A stretch of DNA of 64,000 bases from Dillenia suffruticosa (Eukaryota; Streptophyta; Magnoliopsida; Dilleniales; Dilleniaceae): NCBI GenBank assembly GCA_033439265.1, contig JAVTVX010000019.1:19246039-19310038 (forward strand), given 5' to 3'. The notes under the pieces are model-generated. The model was not told where the DNA came from. It saw only the letters and a list, made by a program, of their open reading frames with translations, and did not search any database. Both the position numbers and the translations under genes were made by a program. This document shows positions 12,771 to 41,342 of the stretch, piece by piece. How positions within the stretch are numbered: position 1 is the first letter of the stretch; every line of letters begins with the position of its first letter.

Positions 12771-13392
12771 CGGTTATACCGAGTCATGTTCCCAAATGAC
12801 CACAAAAAAAAAAAAGAGAGAGAGGGGAGGACCGCGGCGGGGTGCGGAGGGGGGAGGGAGAGAGAGAGGGAGGGCCGCGGGGGGCGGAGGGGGAGGAGAG
12901 AGACAGCGGAGGGGGGAGGGAGAGAGAGGAGGGCCGCGGGGGGGCGGAGGGGGGAGAGAGAGAGAGAGGGAGGGCCGCGGGGGGGCGCCCCCCTCCCCCC
13001 TCCGCCCCGGCAGCCCTCCCCCCGCGGCCCTCCCTCTCTCTCTCCCTCCCCCCTCCGCGGCCCTCTCCCCTCTCTCTCTCCCTCCCTCCCTCCCTCCCCT
13101 CCGCACCCCGCCGCAATCCTCCCCTCTCTCTCATTCCCCCGCCGCCCCCCGCCGCTCTCCTCCCTCCCCCGCCACTCTCCTCCCCTCTCTCCCTCCCCTC
13201 CGCGGACTCCTCTCCCTCCCTCTCTCTCTCTCTCTGGACTTTGGGTTGTCGCGTTTTGGAGACGCGACACAGTGTGTCGCGTCTCCAAAACACGATGAAT
13301 TCGGGTTATTTGGGGAAATTTTTTTGGGTTGGGATTGTTTTAAAATTTTTTTTTTTTTTGCGGTCATTTGGGAACATGTCTCCGGTTATACC
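12771..13392. mobile_element. Mutator-like (MULE) foldback MITE with 10-bp target duplication
   Basis: The element spans 12781-13382 (602 bp). Its ends are inverted repeats: the left begins GAGTCATGTTCCCAAATGAC and the right, reverse-complemented, begins GAGACATGTTCCCAAATGAC. Both continue into an A-run, about 34 bp in all. It is flanked by the exact direct repeat CGGTTATACC at 12771-12780 and 13383-13392. Long terminal inverted repeats beginning with G plus a 9-11 bp duplication are typical of the Mutator superfamily. The interior is a very GC- and purine-rich half (GGGGGAGG/GAGAGA blocks) followed by its pyrimidine complement, so the whole element can fold back. There is no credible transposase. 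The many overlapping frames here are low-complexity artefacts. Confidence 0.85.
13250..13294. repeat. Palindrome with 21-bp arms inside the MITE
   Basis: CGCGTTTTGGAGACGCGACAC (21 bases; first 20 CGCGTTTTGGAGACGCGACA) at 13250-13270 is mirrored at 13274-13294 with one mismatch and a 3-base loop, giving a compact hairpin near the right end of the Mutator-like element. Confidence 0.85.
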
Positions 13393-30948: not shown

Positions 30949-32513
30949 GGCTACTAGAAAATATTGTATCAACAATGAATTAGTGATGAAATTTTAACGA
31001 TAAATTTTTTTGTCACTAATCTATCGCTGATAGTGGATCAAGATAAAAAATAAAAAATAAAAAAATAAAAACTATCAACGACAGATTTTTTAGCGACGGA
31101 AAAAATCCGTTGCTGCAGTGGACCAACATAAAAAATAAAATTTTTTTAAAAAAAAGAAAAACTATTAGCGACAGATATGTTTCGTCGCTAAAAAATATAT
31201 TCCTAATCCATCATTGATAATGGATCAAGATAAAAAATAAAAAATAAAAAATAAAAAAAAAAACTATCAGCGCGGATTATTTAGCGACGGAAAATTTTCA
31301 TTGTTAATCCGTCACTAATAGTGGACTAAGATAAAAAATAAAAATTAAAAAAAAAAACTATCAGCAATGGATTATTTAGCGATGAAAAATTTCCATCACT
31401 GATAGTGGACCAAAGTAATAAAAAATAAAAAAAAAACTATCAATGACGGATTAGTGACGGATTTTTAAATGACGAAAAATTTCCGTCGCTAATAGTATTT
31501 AAAGGTAAAAAAATTAAAAAAAAAAGAACTATCAGGGACAGAAAATATCCGTTGCTGATAGTTCCTTTTTTATTTTTTATTTTTTCTTTTCTTTTATTAT
31601 TTTATGATTATTTTATTATTTTATTATTTTATTATTTTATAATTATTTTATTATTTTTCTTCTCTTTTATTATTTAATAATTCTTTTTTATTTTTCTTTT
31701 ATTTATTTATTTTTCTATTTTATTCTATTATTTTATTATTTGATTTAATGGACAAATAAAAAAATAATTTGCTAGTCTATCTTAATTTATCAAAGAAATA
31801 TTTTATTTCTTTATTTAGCGCAAATTTAATCAATATCAAATTTAAATAGTTAGAAAAATTCAGTGAGAATATTCAATGAAAAAAATTATCCAAGGTAAAG
31901 GAAAACAAATGTGAGTGAGATAAAAAAATTGTGAGAGTAAGATAAATTTTTTTTTTTAAAAAAGTGACAATGAAATTAATATTAAAAATAAAGTGAGAGT
32001 TAGATAATAAATTAAAAAAAAAATATATCAGAGAACGAACTGAGGCATGGTGGTTGAATGACTCATATTTCATCTCGGAAGCGCGGGTTCGATTTCGCGT
32101 GAAGACACATTTTTCACAACAAAATATGATCGGGTGGCGTGGTGAGGTGCGTGTGTGTGTGAGGTCGCAAGTGGACACATGAGGGCGTGCGGCGCGTGAA
32201 AGAGCTGGTGGGGCGGGCATTTGGGCACGTGCTCGTGCTTGACGGTTCTAGAATTAATAACAAAAAATATCCGTCCCTGATATTTTTACATATTTTCTTC
32301 TATCAATGACGAATTAGCAACGAATTTTTTAGCGATAGATTTTTTCCGTAACTAATCCGTCACTGATATTTAGCGACAGATAGTATTCTGTCAGTAATAT
32401 TTAGCGGTATAGTTTTTAGCAACGGAAAAAATTTATCGCTAATATCCTTAGCGATGGATTTTTAGATTTCAGCGATAGATATTTCCGTCACTGATATTAA
32501 ATTTCTAGTAGTG
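30949..32513. mobile_element. Non-autonomous CACTA-like element, left of the tRNA array
   Basis: The right end reads TTTCTAGTAGTG (32502-32513), the reverse complement of CACTACTAGAAA. The left end shows CTACTAGAAA at 30951, with the first bases altered. The interior is dense in short inverted repeats built on GCGACGGA and CCGTCGCT, the subterminal motif shared with the element at 39343-40466. There is no transposase frame. A tRNA-like module lies at about 32041-32115, followed by a GC-rich stretch to 32250. Confidence 0.65.
32041..32115 (+). other. tRNA-like module inside the CACTA element
   Basis: GGCATGGTGGTTGAATGACT followed by GCGCGGGTTCGATTTCGCG looks like RNA polymerase III A- and B-boxes with a T-arm that can pair, then ACACATTTTTCACA with a T-run. 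The same arrangement, reversed, occurs at 39790-39885 inside the other CACTA element. It could be a captured SINE head; it is not a complete tRNA. Confidence 0.4.
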
Positions 32514-32707
32514 TGAACTGATAAATTTGATTGAAATGTGTTACAAATAGTGCGTGTCTTCTCATTCTTTAGTAGGATCTATGCATTTGAGAGAAAGAGA
32601 GAGAGAGAGGAACAAGATTTGAACCAACTTGAGTGAATGTGTCTATACGCTATATATGGAGTTGATATTGGGAAAAAGAAGCAAAAATGAGAGAAAACAC
32701 GTCTCAT

Positions 32708-32770
32708 GGTGAGGGTATTGATCCCCGTACCTCTCACGTGCTAAGCGAGCGCTCATATGAGCTACATCTC
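32708..32770 (-). pseudogene. tRNA-Ala-derived copy, shortened
   Basis: First copy of the array. It keeps the AGC anticodon, but bases are lost in the acceptor/T region and around the D-arm (63 bp against 73), so it cannot form a full cloverleaf. Confidence 0.7.
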
Positions 32771-32836
32771 TTTCGATTAAAATATGGTTACAAGTAGTAC
32801 CTCTTTTCAGGTTAATGGGAGAAAAGTATATCATGG

Positions 32837-32909
32837 TGGAGACGTAGGATATTGATCCTTGTACCTTTTGCATGTTAAGCGAGCGTTCTATCATATAAGC
32901 TACATCCCC
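32837..32909 (-). pseudogene. tRNA-Ala-derived copy with AAC anticodon
   Basis: Full length (73 bp), about 12 differences from the intact copy, mostly C/T and G/A. The anticodon position reads AAC (a Val anticodon) through a single transition. The T-stem is weakened. Confidence 0.7.
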
Positions 32910-33076
32910 TTAAACTAAAGTATGGTTACTATTAGTCCCTATTTTCCCGTTCTTCATCATATGGAAGGCGTGCATTTGAAAGAGAGAGAGAGGAACAAGA
33001 TTTGAACCTACCTAAGTCAATTTGTCTATATGTTATTGGGAAAGAGAAGCAAAAATGAGATAAAAACATCCCCTAG

Positions 33077-33149
33077 TGGAGATGTAGGGTATCGATCTCC
33101 ATATCTCTAGCATGCTAAGCTAGTGCTTTACCATCTGAGTTATATCCCC
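33077..33149 (-). pseudogene. tRNA-Ala(AGC)-derived copy
   Basis: Full length with AGC anticodon, about 10 differences. The anticodon stem and T-stem carry mismatches. Confidence 0.7.
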
Positions 33150-33363
33150 TTAGACTAACATATAGTTACAAATAGTACATATTTTCTCATTCTTTATCAT
33201 ATAGAAGATATGTGCATTTGAGAAAGAGAGAGAGAGGAACAAGTTTTGAATCGACCTAAGTGAATGTATCTATAGTTTATTTATGGATTTTCAATCAAAT
33301 AGCTCCATGCTAGTCCAATGTTATTGAGAAAAAGAAGCAAAAAAGAGAGAAAACAACTAATGG

Positions 33364-33436
33364 TGGAGATGCGGCGTATTGATCCTCATACCTTGCGTAT
33401 ACTAAACGAGCGCTCTATCATCTGAGTTACATCCAC
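33364..33436 (-). pseudogene. tRNA-Ala-derived copy with AGT anticodon
   Basis: Full length but the anticodon position reads AGT (a Thr anticodon). The acceptor end is altered (ATCCAC on the plus strand) and the T-stem is mismatched. Confidence 0.7.
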
Positions 33437-33614
33437 TTAAATTGAAGTATCATTACAAATAGTCCGTGTTTTCTGCTTCTTCATCATATGTAAGATATGT
33501 TTATTCAAGAGAGATATAGAAGAGCAAGTTTTGAACCGACATGAGTGAAGTGTCTGCAAATTATTTATGGACATCAATCAAATATCACAAAAATGAGCAA
33601 AAAACATCTCATGG

Positions 33615-33686
33615 TGGAGACAAGGGTATTGATCCCTATACCTCTCGCATGCTAAGCCAATGCTTTATCATTTGAGCTACAAACCC
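33615..33686 (-). pseudogene. tRNA-Ala(AGC)-derived copy
   Basis: About 72 bp with AGC anticodon. The acceptor stem (ACAAACCC) and anticodon stem are disrupted. Confidence 0.7.
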
Positions 33687-33894
33687 TTGGACTAAGATAT
33701 GGTTACAAATAGTGCTTATTGTCTCGTTCTTCATCATCTAGTACATTTGAGAGAGACAGAGAGAGGAACAAGGTTTGAATCAACCTTAGTGAATGTGTCT
33801 ATAGTTTATTTATGGATTTTCAACCAAATAGCACCATGTCAGTCTAATGTTATTGGAAAAAAGAAGCAAAAAATGAGAGAAAAACATCTGATAG

Positions 33895-33967
33895 TGGAGC
33901 TATGGGGTATTGATCTTTGTACCTCTCGCATGCTATGTGAGTACTCTATCATCTGAGTTACATCCTC
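33895..33967 (-). pseudogene. tRNA-Ala(AGC)-derived copy
   Basis: Full length with AGC anticodon; several transitions in the T-stem and 5' side (ACATCCTC). Confidence 0.7.
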
Positions 33968-34248
33968 TTGTAATAAAGTATTATTACAAATAGTACCTAT
34001 AGTACCTATTTTCTCGTTCTTATTCATATATAAGATATGTGCCTTTGAGAGATATAAAAAGAGAGGAATAATACTTGAATTGACCTGAGCGAATATGTTT
34101 ACAAGTTACCAAATGCAGATGTCATACAAATATTATCAATAGCGTAGAAATGAGAGAAAAGTTTTTAATGATGGAGACTTGATTGAATGATGTTATTTGT
34201 GGACTTTTCAATCAAATAGTACAAAAATGAGGGAAAAGTATCTCACAA

Positions 34249-34294
34249 TGGAGATGCAGGATACGATCCCCGTATCTCGGGCATGCTAAGTGAG
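34249..34294 (-). pseudogene. Truncated tRNA-Ala-derived copy
   Basis: Only the 3' two-thirds remains (T-arm, variable loop, anticodon AGC). The sequence then jumps into the spacer GAGAAAGAGGAA, so the 5' half is deleted. Confidence 0.75.
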
Positions 34295-34352
34295 AAAGAG
34301 GAATAAGGTTTGAAGCAATGATATTGGGAGGAAAAAACAAAAATAAGGAATG

Positions 34353-34357
34353 AAAAA
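34353..34357 (-). terminator. RNA polymerase III T-run terminator
   Basis: TTTTT on the minus strand, about nine bases after the 3' end of the intact tRNA-Ala gene. Similar T-runs follow many other copies in the array. Confidence 0.7.
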
Positions 34358-34365
34358 TTTAATGG

Positions 34366-34438
34366 TGGAGATGCGGGGTATCGATCCCCGTACCTCTCGC
34401 ATGCTAAGCGAGCGCTCTACCATCTGAGCTACATCCCC
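34366..34438 (-). tRNA. tRNA-Ala (anticodon AGC), intact
   Basis: A 73-nt gene on the minus strand. All four stems pair: acceptor GGGGATG with CATCTCC, D-stem GCTC/GAGC, anticodon stem CTCGC/GCGAG around TTAGCAT, T-stem CGGGG/CCCCG. It keeps A73 and the G3-T70 wobble pair that alanyl-tRNA synthetase reads. To my knowledge it equals the standard plant cytosolic tRNA-Ala(AGC). A-box (TAGCTCAGATGG) and B-box (GGGATCGATACC) are intact. A TTTAAA-like motif lies about 20 nt upstream, CAAG abuts the start, and a TTTTT terminator begins about 9 nt past the end. It is the only copy in the array with no departures. Confidence 0.93.
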
Positions 34439-34611
34439 TTGGAGTAAAGTTTGATTTTAAAGAGTCGCTGTTTTCTTGTTCTTCATGTGTAATATATGTG
34501 CATGAGAGAGAGAGAGAGGAACAAGTTGTGAACCGACACAAGTCAATGTATCCCCAAGTTATTTATGAACTTTCAATATATCACAAAAATGAGGAAAAAA
34601 ACATCTAACGG

Positions 34612-34683
34612 TGGAGATATAGGTATCTATCCCCATACCTCTTGCATGCTAAGGGAGTACTCTACTATCTCAGCTACATCCCC
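34612..34683 (-). pseudogene. tRNA-Ala(AGC)-derived copy
   Basis: 72 bp with AGC anticodon. One base is missing near the T-loop, with mismatches in the anticodon and D stems. Confidence 0.7.
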
Positions 34684-34962
34684 TTAAACTGAAGTATGGT
34701 TATCAATAATGTCTATTTTCTCATTCTTAATCATATAGAAGATATGTGCATTTGAGTTTTTGAGAGAGATGGAAAGAGTTGAACAAGGTTTGAATCGATC
34801 TAAGTGAATGTGTCTATAGGTTATCAAATGTGAATATCATACAAATATTATCTATAGCACAAAAATGAGAGAAAAGCATGTGATTGTGGAGACAGGATGG
34901 AATGATGTTGTTTATGGACTTTCAATCAAATAGCGCAAAAATAAGGAAAGAGCATATCATGG

Positions 34963-35034
34963 GGGAGATGTGGGGTATCAAAACTGTACATCTCACATAC
35001 TAAGCAAGTGCCCTACCATTTAAACTACATCCCC
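34963..35034 (-). pseudogene. tRNA-Ala-derived copy with AGT anticodon
   Basis: About 72 bp. The B-box region is destroyed (ATCAAAACTG on the plus strand) and the anticodon position reads AGT. Confidence 0.7.
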
Positions 35035-35460
35035 TTTGACTGAAATATGGTTGCAAATAGTGCCTCTTTTCTTATTCTTCATCATCTGGAAGATATGTGC
35101 ATTTGAGAGAGAGAAAGAGAGAGAGAGAAAAACAACATTTGAACCAACCTAAGTAAATATATCTATAGTTTATTTATGGACTTTCAATCAAATAGCTCTA
35201 TGCTAGTCCACTATTATTGGGAAAAACAAGCGAAAATGAGAAAAAAAAATTTAATGGTTGCAAATAGTGCCTCTTTTCTTATTCTTCATCATATGGAAGA
35301 TATGTGCATTTGAGAGAGAGAGAGACAGACAGAAACAAGGTTTGAACCAACCAATGTGAATATATTTGTAGTTTATTTATGGACTTTCAATCAAATTGCT
35401 TCATGATAGTCCAATATTATTAGGAAAAACAAGGGAAAATGAGATAAAAACATTTAGTGG

Positions 35461-35531
35461 TGGAGATGCAGGATATCGATCCTGGTACCTTTTGCATGCT
35501 AAGCGAAAGCTACCATCTACGTTACATCCCC
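35461..35531 (-). pseudogene. tRNA-Ala(AGC)-derived copy
   Basis: 71 bp with AGC anticodon; two bases lost near the anticodon/D-stem junction. Confidence 0.7.
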
Positions 35532-35747
35532 ATGCATGAAAGTATGGTTCCAAGCAGTGCCTATTTTCTCGTTCTTTATCATATAGAAGATATATGCATT
35601 TGAGAGAGATAGAGAGGAACAAGATTTGAATCGATCTAAGTGAATGTGTCTATAGTTTATTTATGGATTTTCAATCAAAGCTCCATACAAGTTCGATGTT
35701 ATTTGGAAAAAAAAAAAAAGCAAAAACGAGAGAAAAACAACTAATGG

Positions 35748-35815
35748 TTGAGATGCAGGGTATCAATCTCCATACCTCATGCATGCTAAGCGAATACCAT
35801 TTGAGCTATATCCCC
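35748..35815 (-). pseudogene. tRNA-Ala(AGC)-derived copy, shortened
   Basis: 68 bp. The D-stem/anticodon-stem side is deleted; AGC anticodon kept. Confidence 0.7.
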
Positions 35816-35982
35816 TTGGATTGAAGTATGATTACAAATAGCACCAATTTTCTCATTCTTCATCATATAGAAGATATGAGCATTTGAGAGAGACAAGAGA
35901 GGAAAATGGTTTGAATCGATATGAAAATGAGAGAAAAACATTTGATGGTGGAGATGCGGGGTATTGATCCCCGTACCTCTCG

Positions 35983-36531
35983 TGTGACGACCCGCTATCC
36001 AGGCGTCGCACCCCTTAGCAGGGAAGAATAAATCAGCATAATGCGGAAGCCAGAAATACATTTAAAATACGACGTCCGGACTCGCGACAGTCGCACTCCC
36101 CGTGTGTGATAACACGGAAGGAGATTTAAATAAAAAGGAAATCATTTCCTTAATCTTTCTAATGAAAATTTGGCAGAGTTTCCCCTGTTTAGTGACTGTT
36201 GGCCACCTGGGGTAAATACAAAAATCTGACCATAGCAAAATAGCACTCTTAGATATCAATTTAATAAGTGCATGCAAAGTACTTGCCTTTGAAAACTTAA
36301 AATCTACTTTACTCTCCTATATGCTTGTTCATCCAAACCCCTAACTTCCCAAGTGATTTCAGCTTGTCCTAGGGTTGTTCCACTTCTTTTCTACACTTCC
36401 TTATGTTGGGGACACCCAATACTTGGATGGAGGTTGCTGAATCCAAGCTTAGATAGGTGTTTTAATGGAGTTTTGGGGTGGTTTTGGGAGAGGAAATGAG
36501 AAATCCGAAAATGTGTTTTTAGGAAGAAGGT

Positions 36532-36606
<75 letters not shown>

Positions 36607-36750
36607 TCTCTCTTTACACCTCTAAGTGGCCCAACATGCATGTTATGTGTCAAGTGCATAACAACAAGTGTGGTGTGTGCATGTGCCCAGTGGTGAGCCA
36701 TAATCATATTCCCTTTTTTTTTTTTTTGTAAAGGTAATTGGGGTCTTACA
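35983..36750. mobile_element. Solo-LTR-like fossil inserted in a tRNA-Ala copy
   Basis: A 768-bp block starts TGTGACGACCC and ends GGGTCTTACA (TG...CA, ends roughly inverted). It is flanked by TCTCG (35978-35982) and TTTCG (36751-36755), a 5-bp duplication with one mismatch. It contains a CT microsatellite (36537-36604) and a T-run but no coding domain, consistent with a single LTR left from an LTR retrotransposon, probably Ty3/gypsy-like. The age is moderate, judging from the near-intact flanks. Confidence 0.65.
36537..36604. repeat. (CT)n microsatellite
   Basis: About 68 bp of CT repeat inside the solo-LTR-like element. Confidence 0.95.
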
Positions 36751-36983
36751 TTTCGCATGCTAAGCGAGCGCTTTACCATCTGAGCTACATCCCCTTTAAT
36801 TAAAATATGATTGCAAATAGTTCTTATTTCTCATTCTTCATCATACATAAGATATGTGCATTTCAGAGAGAGAGAGAGAGAGATAGAAGAACAAGGATTG
36901 AACCGACATGAGTAAATGTGTTTACAAGTTATTTATGGAATTTTAATCAAATAGCACAAAAATAAGGAAAAAGCATCTAATGG

Positions 36984-37056
36984 TGGAGATGCGGAGTATT
37001 AATCATCATACCTCTCGCATGCTAAGCGAGCGCTCTAACATCTGAGCTACATCCCT
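36984..37056 (-). pseudogene. tRNA-Ala(AGC)-derived copy
   Basis: Full length; anticodon arm intact with AGC. The T-stem and loop are altered (TTAATCATCA on the plus strand) and the first base is changed. Confidence 0.7.
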
Positions 37057-37260
37057 TGGGACTAAAGTATAGTTACAAATAGTGCCTATCTTCATCATAT
37101 AAAAGATATGCATTCTATCATATGTGCATTTGAAAGAGATAGAGAGAGGAACAAGGTTTGAATTGACCTAAGTGAATGTGTCTATAGTTTATTTATGGAT
37201 TTTCAATCAAATAGCTTCATGCTAGTCCAATAAGCAAAAATGAGAGAAAACATCTAATGG

Positions 37261-37333
37261 TGGAGATACGAAGTATCGATCCTTGTACCTCTCGCATGCT
37301 AAATGAACACTCTACTATCTGAGCTACATCCCT
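37261..37333 (-). pseudogene. tRNA-Ala(AGC)-derived copy
   Basis: Full length with AGC anticodon. The anticodon stem (AAATGAACAC) and T-stem are mismatched. Confidence 0.7.
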
Positions 37334-37637
37334 TTGGACTAAAGTATGGTTACAAATGGTACATATTTTCTCATTGTTCATCATATAGAAGATATGTGCA
37401 TTCGAGAAATAGAGCGAGAGGAACAAGGTTTGAGTCAATGTAAGTCAATGTGTTTGCAAGTTACCAAATGCACATATCTTACAAATATTATCTAAAACGC
37501 AAAAATACAAAAAAAAAAAAAAAAGCATTTCATGGTAAAGATGCGAGTGAATGATGTTATTTATGGACTTTCAATCAAATTGCGTAAAAATAAGGTTTGA
37601 GTCAACGTAAGTTAATGTGTCTACAGATTTCCAAACA

Positions 37638-37700
37638 GTGTATCGATCCTTATACCTCTCGAATACTAAGCAAGCGTTCTACCATTTGAGCTACATCCCC
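37638..37700 (-). pseudogene. 3'-truncated tRNA-Ala-derived copy
   Basis: The acceptor 3' strand is missing (the spacer TTTCCAAACA joins at about 37637), and the anticodon position is changed (GAATACTAAG). Confidence 0.65.
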
Positions 37701-37929
37701 TTTGATTGAAGTATGGTCACAAATGGTACTTGGTTTCTCATTCTTCATTATATAAAAGATATGAGCATTTGTGAAAGAGAGAAAGAGAGAGAAAGGAACA
37801 AGATTTAAACCAACCTGAGTAAATGTGTCTGTAATTTATTTATGGACTTTCAATCAAATATCTCCATGTTAGTGGGAAACACATGCTTATTGGGAAACAC
37901 ATGCAAAAAGGAGAGAAAAAAACTAATGA

Positions 37930-38002
37930 TGGAGATGTAGGGTATCGATCCCCATACCTCTCACATGCTAAGCAAGCGCTCTACCATCTGAGCTACATCC
38001 CC
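37930..38002 (-). tRNA. tRNA-Ala(AGC), second copy able to fold
   Basis: Full length with five differences from the intact gene, all transitions. The T-stem changes fall at paired positions and still pair (T-A and G-T), and the anticodon stem has two wobble pairs in place of Watson-Crick ones. Acceptor and D stems are unchanged, A73 and the G3-T70 pair are present, and the A- and B-boxes are intact. It is possibly functional, but less certain than the copy at 34366. Confidence 0.65.
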
Positions 38003-38269
38003 TTGGATTGAAATATGGTTACAAATAGTATTTTCTAGTTCTTCATCATACAGAAGATATGTGCGTTCAAGAGAAATAGAGCGAGAGGAACAAGGTTTAA
38101 GTCAACATGGGTCAATGTGTCTACAAGTTACCAAATGCACATATCTTACAAATATTATCTATAGCGCAAAAATGCGAAAAAAAACATCTCATGGTAAAAC
38201 GTTAGTGAATGATGTTATTTATGAACTTTCAATCAAATAGCATAAAAATGAGGAAAAAGTATCTCACGG

Positions 38270-38342
38270 TGGAGATGCAGAGTATTAATCCACATTCCTC
38301 TCATATGCTAAGCTAGTACTCTACCATCTAAGCTACATCCCC
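38270..38342 (-). pseudogene. tRNA-Ala(AGC)-derived copy
   Basis: Full length with AGC anticodon, about 11 differences; T-arm and anticodon stem disrupted. Confidence 0.7.
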
Positions 38343-38549
38343 TTTAAATTAAGTATGGTCGCAAATGGTGCCTTTTTTCTCATTCTTTATCATATAGAAG
38401 ATATGTGCATTTGTGAAAGAGGGAAAGAGATAGAGAGGAACAAGATTTAAACCAACCCAAGTAAATGTGTCCGTAGTTATGGAATTTCAATCAAATAGCT
38501 CCAAGTTAGTGGGAAACACATGCAAAAATGAGAGAAAAACATATAATGG

Positions 38550-38622
38550 TGGAGATACGGGGTATCAATCCCCGTATCTCTCGCATGCTAAACGAGCGCT
38601 CTATCATTTGAGTTACATCCCT
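38550..38622 (-). pseudogene. tRNA-Ala(AGC)-derived copy, mildly decayed
   Basis: Full length with AGC anticodon and about eight transitions. The T-stem pairs fully (CGGGG/CCCCG) and the acceptor stem has lost its first pair. It is a borderline pseudogene. Confidence 0.6.
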
Positions 38623-38885
38623 TCAAATGAAGTATGGCTACAAATAGTCCCTATTTTCTCAATCTTCATCATGCAGAACAAAAGTACATTTGAGAGAGAT
38701 AGAGAACTAAGGTTGAATCAACATGAGTGAATGTGTTTACAGGTTACCAAATGCACATATCTTTCAAATATTATCTATAACACAAAAAAGTAAGAAAAGC
38801 ATCTCATGGTGGAGACTTGAGTGAATAATGTAATTTTTGGCCTTTCAATCAAATAGCTTAAAAATGAGGGAAAAGGATCTCATGG

Positions 38886-38956
38886 TGGAGATGTAGGGTA
38901 TTGATTCTCGTCTCTCACATACTATGTGAGCACTCTACTATCTGAGCTATATCCCC
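38886..38956 (-). pseudogene. tRNA-Ala-derived copy with AGT anticodon
   Basis: 71 bp; bases lost near the variable loop, anticodon position reads AGT. Confidence 0.7.
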
Positions 38957-39007
38957 TTGGACTCAAGTGTGGTTACAAATAGTGCCTATCTTCCTGATCT
39001 TTATCGT

Positions 39008-39342
39008 ATAGAAGACATGTGCATTTGAGAAAGATAGAGAGATACGAATAAGATTTGAATTAACCTGACTGAAATATGGTTGCAAATAGTGACTGTTTTC
39101 TCTTTCTTCATCATATGGAAGATATGTGCATTTGAGAGAGAGAGAGAGAGAGAGAGGAACAATGTTTGGACCAATCTGAGTATATGTGTCTATATTTTAT
39201 TTATGGACTTTCAATCAAATAGCTTTATGCTACTCCAATGTTATTGAGTGGAAGATATGTGTATTTGTGAGAGTGAGAGAGAGAGAGAGAGAGAGGAACA
39301 AGGTTTGAACCAATCTAAGTGATGGAAAATATGTGTATTTGA
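39008..39342. repeat. Array spacers without tRNA
   Basis: Spacer landmarks (GAAGACATGTGCATTTGAGA, GGAACAATGTTTGGACC) recur at close spacing, but at about 39065 the sequence jumps from ATTAACCTGA straight to CTGAAATATGGTTGCAAATA. The tRNA and half a spacer have therefore been deleted. Confidence 0.65.
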
Positions 39343-40466
39343 CACTATTAGAAAATGAACTTTCAGCGACGAAAAAATCAATTGCTGAAAGTCCATTTTC
39401 CGTCCCTAAAGGGTATCAGCGACGGATTTTTTCCGTCGCTGATAGTGACCTCGCTAAATATCAGCGACGGATTTTTTTCCGTCGCTAATATTAGCAAAGG
39501 AAAAAATCGGTCACTGATATTAGTGATGAAAAAAATCCGTTACTAAAAAAAATAAAATAAAAAAATCAGTGACGGACTCAATCCATCGTTGATTTTAGAC
39601 TTCTCAAAATAAATTGTGCTCAATCCATCGCTAATATTACTGACGGAAAACAATCCATCGCTAAAAGAAATAAAATAAAATAAAATAAAATAAAATCAAT
39701 GACGGACTGAGTCCGTCGCTGATTTTAGACTTCTCAAAAAAAAAAAATTGTGGTCCAGGCAACCCCTCCCGACCCGCCAACCCAACTCCTTTAATTTGTG
39801 AAAAAATGCCTCTAGTCACATTCGAATCCGCGCAGTAGAGGATTTCATGAGCAACATAACCACCGTGCCAAGCTTCATATCCATTCATATTACTTTTTTG
39901 TTTTTACTTATTATTTTTATTTCATATTTTTTAATAATAATAAAATTATATAAAATTATAATTTATTATAAAATAATAAAATAATTTTATTTTAGCTTAA
40001 AATAAAAAAAAAATAATATTATCTTTCTACAAAATAAAATAAAAAAATATATATTAAAAAAATTAAAAAATTAAAAAAATTAAAAAAATTAAAAAATTAA
40101 AAAAATTAAAAAAATTAAAAAAATTAAAAAATTAAAAAAATTAATAAAAATCCGTCGCTAATCCATTGGTAATCCTTGCTAATTTTTTCATCACTAATCC
40201 GTAGGTAATAGATTTACAAAAAATTTAAAAATTTAAAAATTTAAAAATTTAAAAAATCTATCGCTAATCCGTCGGTAAAATTTCCACCGGTAATCCGTCA
40301 CTAAAATTTCAGTCAGTAATTCGTTGCTGATAGTTTTACAAAAAATTAAAAAAAATAAAAAATTATAAAAAATCCGTTGGTAATCCATCGAAATTTCGTC
40401 ACTATTACCGATAGAAAAAAATTCGTAGATAATTTTCTGTCGCTGAAAGTTCATTTTCTAGTAGTG
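39343..40466. mobile_element. Non-autonomous CACTA (En/Spm-like) element in the tRNA array
   Basis: The 1,124-bp element starts CACTATTAGAAAATGAACTT and ends with the complement of CACTACTAGAAAATGAACTT, terminal inverted repeats of nearly 28 bp with one mismatch. Flanking triplets are TGA and AGA. Subterminal GCGACGGA/TCCGTCGCT repeats are abundant, and the middle is a low-complexity AAATTAAAAAA array (40045-40140). There is no transposase. It shares its end motif, its GACGGA repeats and a tRNA-like module with 30949-32513, so an autonomous relative must exist elsewhere. Confidence 0.85.
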
Positions 40467-40642
40467 AGAGAGAGAAAGAGAGAGAGAGGAACAATGTTTG
40501 AACCAATATGAGAGGAACAAGGTTTAAACCAATCCGAGTGAATATGTCTATATTTTATTTATGGACTTTCAATCAAATAGCTCTATACTACTCCAATGTT
40601 ATTAGGAAAAAGAAGCAAAAATGAGAGAAAAGTATCCAATGA

Positions 40643-40715
40643 TGGAGATGTGGAGTATAGATCCTTATACCTCGCCCATGCTAAGCGAGTGCACTATTAT
40701 CTAAGTTATATCCCC
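40643..40715 (-). pseudogene. tRNA-Ala(AGC)-derived copy
   Basis: Full length with AGC anticodon; D-arm (TTATCTAAGT) and T-stem mismatched. Confidence 0.7.
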
Positions 40716-41049
40716 GTAGATTAAAGTGTGGTTACAAATGGTGCATATTTTCTCGTTCTTCATCACATAGAAGATATGTGCATTTGAGAGAGAGAAATTT
40801 TGAATCAACCTGAGTAAATATGTCTACAGTTTATCAAAATGCACATATCATACAAATATTATATATGACACAAAAATGAGAGAAAAGCATCTCATGGTAG
40901 AGACCTGAGTAAATGCTGTTACTTATGGACTTTCATTCAAATAGCACAAAAATGGGAGGAAAGCTTCTCATGGTGGAGAAGTGAGTAAATGTTGTTATTT
41001 ATACACTTTCAATCATATTGCACAAAAATGAAGGAAAAGCATCTCATGG

Positions 41050-41122
41050 TGGAGATATGGGATATTGATTCCCATACCTCTCGCATGTTAGATGAGCGTT
41101 CTATCATCTAAGCTACTTCCCT
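41050..41122 (-). pseudogene. tRNA-Ala-derived copy with AAC anticodon
   Basis: Last copy of the array. Full length; anticodon position reads AAC. Acceptor and anticodon stems are mismatched. Confidence 0.7.
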
Positions 41123-41342
41123 TTTTTTCAAAAAGAAATATTATATATTTATCCAAGTTACATTATTTAGTAATCCACACAGCAATGAGAGATAGTGATA
41201 GAGAAAAGTGGGGGACCCAACAGTAATTCGGCCGAAATTAGTCGGAGCAAGCTTCTGGATACTCGGTGATAAACCAGGTCTAGAGAACCAAAAAAAAAAA
41301 AGTGGTCTAGTTGTAGTTTACAGAAAGATCGGCAGAACATAT

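Follow-up and report, generated by a model that had tools for sequence, protein, structure and literature searches.

A tandem array of tRNA-Ala(AGC)-derived copies, nearly all decayed, in Dillenia suffruticosa

A 64,000-nucleotide stretch of the Dillenia suffruticosa genome (assembly GCA_033439265.1, contig JAVTVX010000019.1, positions 19,246,039 to 19,310,038 of the forward strand), here called the window, carries on its minus strand, at 32533-41122, 22 copies derived from tRNA-Ala(AGC) in head-to-tail units, together with seven acceptor-stem stubs. ARAGORN rejects 19 of the 22 copies, and the substitutions in the decayed copies run overwhelmingly from C:G to T:A, while one copy (u08) has a clean tRNA between diverged flanks. 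We regard it as probable that one tRNA-Ala gene was tandemly duplicated, that the array grew by unequal exchange and became methylated, that the copies decayed by C:G to T:A change and that u08 was kept. An earlier note made from the letters of the window had described a tandem array of tRNA-Ala(AGC) genes on one strand, nearly all decayed, and in this it was right.

Extent and anatomy of the array

With the intact copy as query, nhmmer returned 23 minus-strand segments (all E <= 1.5e-4), which make up 22 copies because an insert splits one of them (u13); no tRNA-Ala copy was found by this search in the rest of the window. The other matches were weak, lay on the plus strand and overlie tRNA copies (E 1.8 in the first round; 0.13, 0.15 and 2.5 in the second). 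Among 100 random first-order Markov sequences of array length, 54 gave any match, with a top score of 4.5 bits compared with 18.3 bits for the weakest real copy; this control supersedes an earlier one at a stricter cut-off (0 matches in 50 shuffles). Searches with tRNA models, proposed as a check alongside the original description, gave two tRNA-Ala(AGC) genes by ARAGORN (34363-34438 and 37930-38002, both on the minus strand) and five tRNAs at the curated Rfam threshold, every one inside the array. ARAGORN accepts u08 and u17, and also u13 with its insert left out. The exact tRNA sequence had 0 matches each in prokaryotic and viral contig collections, which says little for a plant locus. The copies and modules, all on the minus strand, are the following.

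32533..32587, minus: terminal upstream module, no tRNA after it, left array edge
32705..32771, minus: u01, tRNA-Ala pseudogene
32837..32909, minus: u02, tRNA-Ala pseudogene, anticodon AAC
33077..33149, minus: u03, tRNA-Ala pseudogene, Rfam 34.1 bits, 17/21 pairs
33364..33436, minus: u04, tRNA-Ala pseudogene, anticodon AGT
33614..33686, minus: u05, tRNA-Ala pseudogene
33895..33967, minus: u06, tRNA-Ala pseudogene
34100..34198, minus: L module with acceptor-stem stub
34249..34306, minus: u07, truncated tRNA-Ala pseudogene without 5' part
34366..34438, minus: u08, intact tRNA-Ala(AGC), Rfam 60.3 bits, 21/21 pairs
34612..34683, minus: u09, tRNA-Ala pseudogene
34816..34912, minus: L module with acceptor-stem stub
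34963..35034, minus: u10, tRNA-Ala pseudogene, anticodon AGT
35461..35531, minus: u11, tRNA-Ala pseudogene; unit has an extra spacer copy, its tRNA deleted
35748..35815, minus: u12, tRNA-Ala pseudogene, 5 nt missing
35949..36794, minus: u13, tRNA-Ala(AGC) copy split by a solo-LTR-like insert (LTR, long terminal repeat)
36984..37056, minus: u14, tRNA-Ala pseudogene, Rfam 33.5 bits, 18/21 pairs
37261..37333, minus: u15, tRNA-Ala pseudogene
37455..37562, minus: L module with acceptor-stem stub
37626..37700, minus: u16, tRNA-Ala pseudogene without 3' end, anticodon AGT
37930..38002, minus: u17, tRNA-Ala(AGC), accepted by ARAGORN, Rfam 50.3 bits, 21/21 pairs
38122..38220, minus: L module with acceptor-stem stub
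38270..38342, minus: u18, tRNA-Ala pseudogene
38550..38622, minus: u19, tRNA-Ala pseudogene, Rfam 34.7 bits, 19/21 pairs
38738..38837, minus: L module with acceptor-stem stub, query copy of the module search
38886..38956, minus: u20, tRNA-Ala pseudogene, anticodon AGT
40643..40715, minus: u21, tRNA-Ala pseudogene
40826..40923, minus: L module with acceptor-stem stub
40936..41000, minus: partial L module with acceptor-stem stub
41050..41122, minus: u22, tRNA-Ala pseudogene, anticodon AAC, right array edge

Read along the minus strand, a unit opens with the tRNA, which is followed by a T-rich stretch, a middle part and a CT repeat; the upstream part comes last and terminates in CAA or a relative immediately before the next tRNA. 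Common flanking sequence is thus part of the repeat besides the tRNA (23 upstream and 20 N modules, with none found outside the array within the window), in agreement with the conserved spacer per unit seen earlier. In the alignment each unit joins the next head to tail, and the units are 68-88% identical (mean 79%). The previous count of some two dozen units of 250-380 bp holds in part: there are 22 copies, and 16 units measure 240-380 bp, four others 132, 138, 407 and 497 bp, and the two with inserts 979 and 1759 bp in raw length, the remaining 20 of the 22 spacings lying within 132-497 bp. Similarly, the interval first given for the array, 32514-41125, encloses it closely, and about 1.9 kb of that interval is insertion sequence that had gone unmentioned; insertions, dimer order and directional decay had not been remarked.

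The anticodon AGC is retained in 16 of the 22 copies and G3-U70, the identity mark of alanine, in 18/18 aligned copies. Among the signals for RNA polymerase III (Pol III), CAA occurs within 10 nt upstream of 11/22 copies, an exact A box in 3/22 and a B box in 5/22, and a run of four or more T follows all 22 within 50 nt downstream. Judged by three or more genes per kb (PMC11700998) or by neighbours within 1 kb (PMC12652284), the array would count as a tRNA cluster mainly by virtue of its pseudogenes; only two copies pass ARAGORN, 3.5 kb apart, and five pass Rfam.

Decay spectrum and surviving copies

Decay was counted in 19 copies with u08 as the reference, u08 itself and the truncated copies u07 and u16 being excluded. 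The 208 substitutions comprise 99 G>A, 69 C>T, 3 A>G, 2 T>C and 35 transversions, i.e. 168 from C:G to T:A and 5 in the reverse direction (168/802 and 5/562 per site). Restriction to the 44 positions fixed by published wheat tRNA-Ala-AGC fragments (PMC8722339) gives the same picture (109/505 vs 1/318). By context, C:G to T:A change affects CG at 76/223, CHG at 20/76 and CHH at 72/503 sites, in the order CG > CHG > CHH, and the corresponding tests (CG vs CHH, p 4e-9; CHG vs CHH, p 0.011; CG vs CHG, p 0.26) are optimistic, as p-values assume independent copies and sites, which is not fully the case. C>T and G>A occur at similar rates per site (0.202 and 0.208), and the same is true of the stems (61/304 and 63/323, p 0.92, with denominators that ignore gaps), although a wobble pair usually remains after C>T and usually not after G>A; this is as expected of change at the DNA level without selection for pairing. 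Cloverleaf pairing in 18 of the 22 copies is no better than shuffled, with 81.8% of cells kept compared with 82.5% in shuffles, 417 of 500 of which were at least as high. Sliding the structure by 1-3 columns lowers the pairing, as is to be expected of a structure derived from the tRNA itself. Neither the pairing shuffles nor the stem comparison gave a sign of selection on the cloverleaf of decayed copies. Together with the 19 ARAGORN failures, spectrum and pairing bear out the earlier statement that most copies have lost function. The observed/expected ratio of CpG in the spacers is 0.35, compared with 0.66 and 0.56 in two other stretches measured, and decay tends weakly to rise towards the array ends (rho 0.40, p 0.08). 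As far as the letters allow, the decay spectrum fits methylation-driven deamination of silenced repeats.

A plain ageing cluster under the ordinary A/T-ward mutation bias of plants, with neither methylation nor silencing, is the alternative that the spectrum has to be weighed against, and several observations speak for it or otherwise weigh against the history outlined above. Plant mutation generally favours C:G to T:A, and the bias by itself is therefore no proof of methylation. With a majority-rule consensus of 20 units as the reference the excess becomes smaller (tRNA, 141/791 vs 32/657); drift of some consensus positions is the probable reason. In the spacers, where the direction of change was assigned from the spacer consensus only, the bias is mild (upstream, 51/383 vs 61/907; downstream, 23/140 vs 30/374), and the tRNA does not clearly exceed them in G/C to A/T change (p 0.08). 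A/T sites change less in the tRNA (48/657) than in the spacers (142/1281; p 0.008), so that a period of constraint on the copies before decay is possible, and by raw count transversions are rarer as well (35/1364 vs 90/1804 in the spacers summed). For u13 and u17, moreover, the contrast between gene and flank described below for u08 is weak, if in the same direction (4/73 vs 13/96, p 0.069, and 5/73 vs 14/92, p 0.075). Plain ageing leaves the spacer CpG depletion beyond the rest of the window measured to be explained, and the context order is the order of methylation, CG > CHG > CHH, reported for the Arabidopsis SYY (Ser-Tyr-Tyr) cluster (PMC12308677). We consider it rather unlikely that ageing was the whole story.

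An exact A box is confined to u08, u13 and u17 among the 22 copies, as is an exact 19-nt 5' fragment. All four plant Pol III signals (A box, B box, CAA within 10 nt, T run) are present in u08 and u17. In u08, CAA lies just upstream and a run of five T starts nine bases downstream, and the cloverleaf has the AGC anticodon and the G3-U70 pair that define a tRNA-Ala(AGC) gene. Positions 1-25 and 39-57 of u08 are identical to the two published wheat tRNA-Ala-AGC fragments (PMC8722339). One intact copy and a second able to pair fully had been announced, and u08 and u17 indeed both retain 21/21 pairs, u17 with five differences from u08; u13 without its insert reads as tRNA-Ala(AGC) with two differences from u08 and 20/21 pairs. 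At present, at most two copies look usable.

The tRNA of u08 differs from the leave-one-out consensus at 3/73 positions and its own flanks differ at 21/92 (p 4e-4), the flank consensus not being leave-one-out. The divergence obtained with u08 as its own reference (p 1.5e-6) was discarded as circular and the leave-one-out figure used. A clean tRNA amid drifted flanks would be consistent with selection on one survivor, which is then presumably transcribed. It is also conceivable that a dispersed tRNA-Ala gene overwrote u08 by recent gene conversion, since only its tRNA part is clean and both flanks are diverged; this would, however, require a conversion tract that ends near both tRNA ends, and we judge it about as doubtful as plain ageing. 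The upstream flank of u08 (34440-34475) is the most diverged of 20 upstream flanks compared (15/66) and holds TTTAAAA, which is not in the consensus and may be a TATA-like element.

Growth, edges and insertions

Of ten matches to the L module, three belong to the 3' ends of true copies (u05, u20 and u22) and seven hold just a tRNA 3' stub. Recurrence of this stub form shows that a unit already lacking most of its tRNA was itself multiplied. Within u14-u22, units at even offsets (2, 4, 6: identity 0.820, 0.816, 0.808) are more alike than units at odd offsets (1, 3, 5: 0.785, 0.789, 0.784), with a permutation P of 0.016 (20,000 permutations) for a range that was picked after the pattern had been seen. 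The whole array follows the same order more weakly (even, 0.801, 0.797, 0.797; odd, 0.784, 0.789, 0.789). In a tree of the 22 units, two of 19 inner branches are well supported, joining u16 with u18 (96/84) and u17 with u19 (98/95), as would be expected of the two halves of a duplicated dimer. The tree is otherwise poorly resolved, with 12/19 inner branches open and the bootstrap unsettled, which, like the choice of range, has to be added to the reservations above. The median length of the end branches is 0.14 changes per site, by which growth looks old and recent homogenisation slight.

At the right edge, unit homology ends at the 5' end of u22, and the A/T-rich sequence upstream is unlike the unit: compared with the unit's upstream part it scores 10 (shuffle mean 9.2, P 0.35), the four inner copies compared scoring 32-48. 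On the left the array finishes near 32533 with an upstream part that no tRNA follows. With the cut placed at the tRNA 5' end, the array thus comes close to an integral number of units, and u22 may occupy the founder's position. Head-to-tail copies, shared spacers, a duplicated dimer and the absence of copies elsewhere in the window argue for local amplification and not for separately inserted short interspersed nuclear elements (SINEs). This supports the earlier proposal that a single tRNA gene plus flank was amplified, with unequal crossing over as the process that we infer.

A mobile element piled up in tandem, be it a SINE, a terminal-repeat retrotransposon in miniature (TRIM) bearing a tRNA such as Helenus/Ajax, or a tRNA-carrying Helitron, is a far less probable unit. 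The right array edge coincides with a tRNA 5' end, as would be expected of a SINE at its 5' terminus, Helitron annotations are reported to overlap the tRNA-Cys cluster of Arabidopsis (PMC10701932), and tandem arrays of one element, LTR-11_DR, are mentioned in the Helenus/Ajax paper (PMC10886601). The units, on the other hand, abut head to tail, no unit module lies elsewhere in the window, and the array ends, read by eye and without a dedicated search for TRIM ends, target duplications or Helitron ends, are not TG...CA.

Two insertions interrupt the array. A solo-LTR-like element (35983..36750, 768 bp) with TG...CA ends sits inside u13, flanked by a 5-bp target duplication (TCTCG/TTTCG, one mismatch), and has no second copy in the window. 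A CACTA-like element (39343..40466, 1124 bp), whose 34-nt terminal inverted repeats are 91% complementary, is located within the u21 spacer. A second CACTA-like element (30949..32513) adjoins the left array end; erosion has left a 2-mismatch match at its left terminus, and 30949 is taken as its other end. A clean 3-bp target duplication was seen at neither CACTA-like element. An assembly artefact, to which tandem repeats are prone, can practically be dismissed, as the two different insertions mark single units and 68-88% identity is too low for easy collapse or false expansion.

Both CACTA-like elements (30949-32513 and 39343-40466) are rich in short repeats of the form CCGTCGCTGATA / TATCAGCGACGG, and the left one contains a tandem repeat with a period of about 94-101 bp (31119-31436). 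Elsewhere in the window, a hairpin-like element (12781-13382) with 35-nt inverted ends (94% complementary) encloses a purine-rich G/A and then a pyrimidine-rich C/T stretch, partly complementary to each other. Four of nine open reading frames of the window tested have Pfam matches above cut-off (RING finger, LEA_2, WRKY and ketopantoate hydroxymethyltransferase), a set in keeping with a flowering plant.

Proposed history and comparison with known clusters

According to the history that we prefer, the founder would have been a single nuclear tRNA-Ala(AGC) gene that was tandemly duplicated with about 0.2-0.3 kb of downstream flank. Unequal exchange would then have expanded it to at least 22 units, multiplying monomers and, in the right half, dimers too, and the array was most likely silenced by DNA methylation, to judge from the mutations only. 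Copies would have decayed mostly by C:G to T:A change without detectable selection on the tRNA fold, possibly after earlier constraint. A working gene would have been retained in u08 by selection, or refreshed there by gene conversion; u13 was probably usable until the retroelement landed in it, and u17 may still be.

More tentatively, the locus can be read as a tRNA cluster turned into satellite-like DNA, in which methylated Pol III units mutated away and selection held one gene inside a silenced array. If this is true, past methylation could be read from the mutation spectrum of dead tRNA copies, and such arrays may lie unseen in other plant genomes, since surveys discard tRNA pseudogenes. 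The array represents a late state of a plant tRNA cluster, far advanced in decay, and shows what surveys restricted to high-confidence tRNA genes would miss. Nineteen of its copies are dead, two are usable and a further one was disabled by an insertion, which offers a test, within one genome, of whether silencing and decay go together. A 19-nt 5' fragment of tRNA-Ala(AGC) has been reported to dampen antifungal defence in Arabidopsis, a strong link not being apparent in the citing paper's own data (PMC13390833); as the fragment is intact in only three of the 22 copies, variants in the sequence could reveal the copies from which fragments are made.

Plants commonly have tandem tRNA clusters, 324 of which are reported from 40 of 44 eudicot genomes (PMC11700998), and the earlier note's view that they are few does not hold. 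A survey of 50 plant and algal species lists 410 clusters of identical tandem tRNA genes with 43 anticodons, covering all 20 standard amino acids (PMC12652284), and earlier work on tandem tRNA-Ala clusters in silkworm is cited in PMC12308677. The note's further remark that it knew of no described tRNA-Ala(AGC) array of this form is accordingly too wide for tandem tRNA-Ala as such; a decayed plant tRNA-Ala array did not appear among the literature matches listed, judged by titles and abstract openings and with supplementary tables outside the scope. A 31-nt piece of the tRNA had no match in the paper texts in which it was looked for. As a plant tandem tRNA cluster the array is of a known kind, and the Ala isotype with such decay was not met in the literature searched.

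The closest single case is the tRNA-Cys(GCA) cluster on Arabidopsis chromosome 5, which likewise consists of tandem units with one tRNA gene each and with transposon annotations (PMC10701932). Its units measure about 0.42 kb, are 84-94% identical and include a pseudogene at one end; unlike the array described here, in which the isotype is Ala and 19/22 copies fail ARAGORN, it has four to six units and nearly all of its genes are high-confidence (PMC10701932). Homogeneous tandem clusters of up to 28 genes have been reported for maize tRNA-Ile and angiosperm tRNA-Pro (PMC11700998). As that survey discards pseudogenes before counting and needs three genes per kb, our array would probably be no cluster there. 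Tandem tRNA-Ala is shared with the Bombyx silk-gland cluster, but the latter is expressed in an animal gland and no link is implied (PMC12308677). Clustered Arabidopsis tRNA genes have been described as silenced (PMC12308677, PMC10701932). The Arabidopsis SYY and Pro clusters resemble the Dillenia array in their tandem expansion, and their flanking regions are richer in pseudogenes (PMC12308677). For the SYY clusters the context order is one of methylation itself, whereas here it is known from mutations alone, and the SYY core keeps the major gene form, which is expressed in root tips (PMC12308677), whereas in Dillenia suffruticosa decay is nearly complete.

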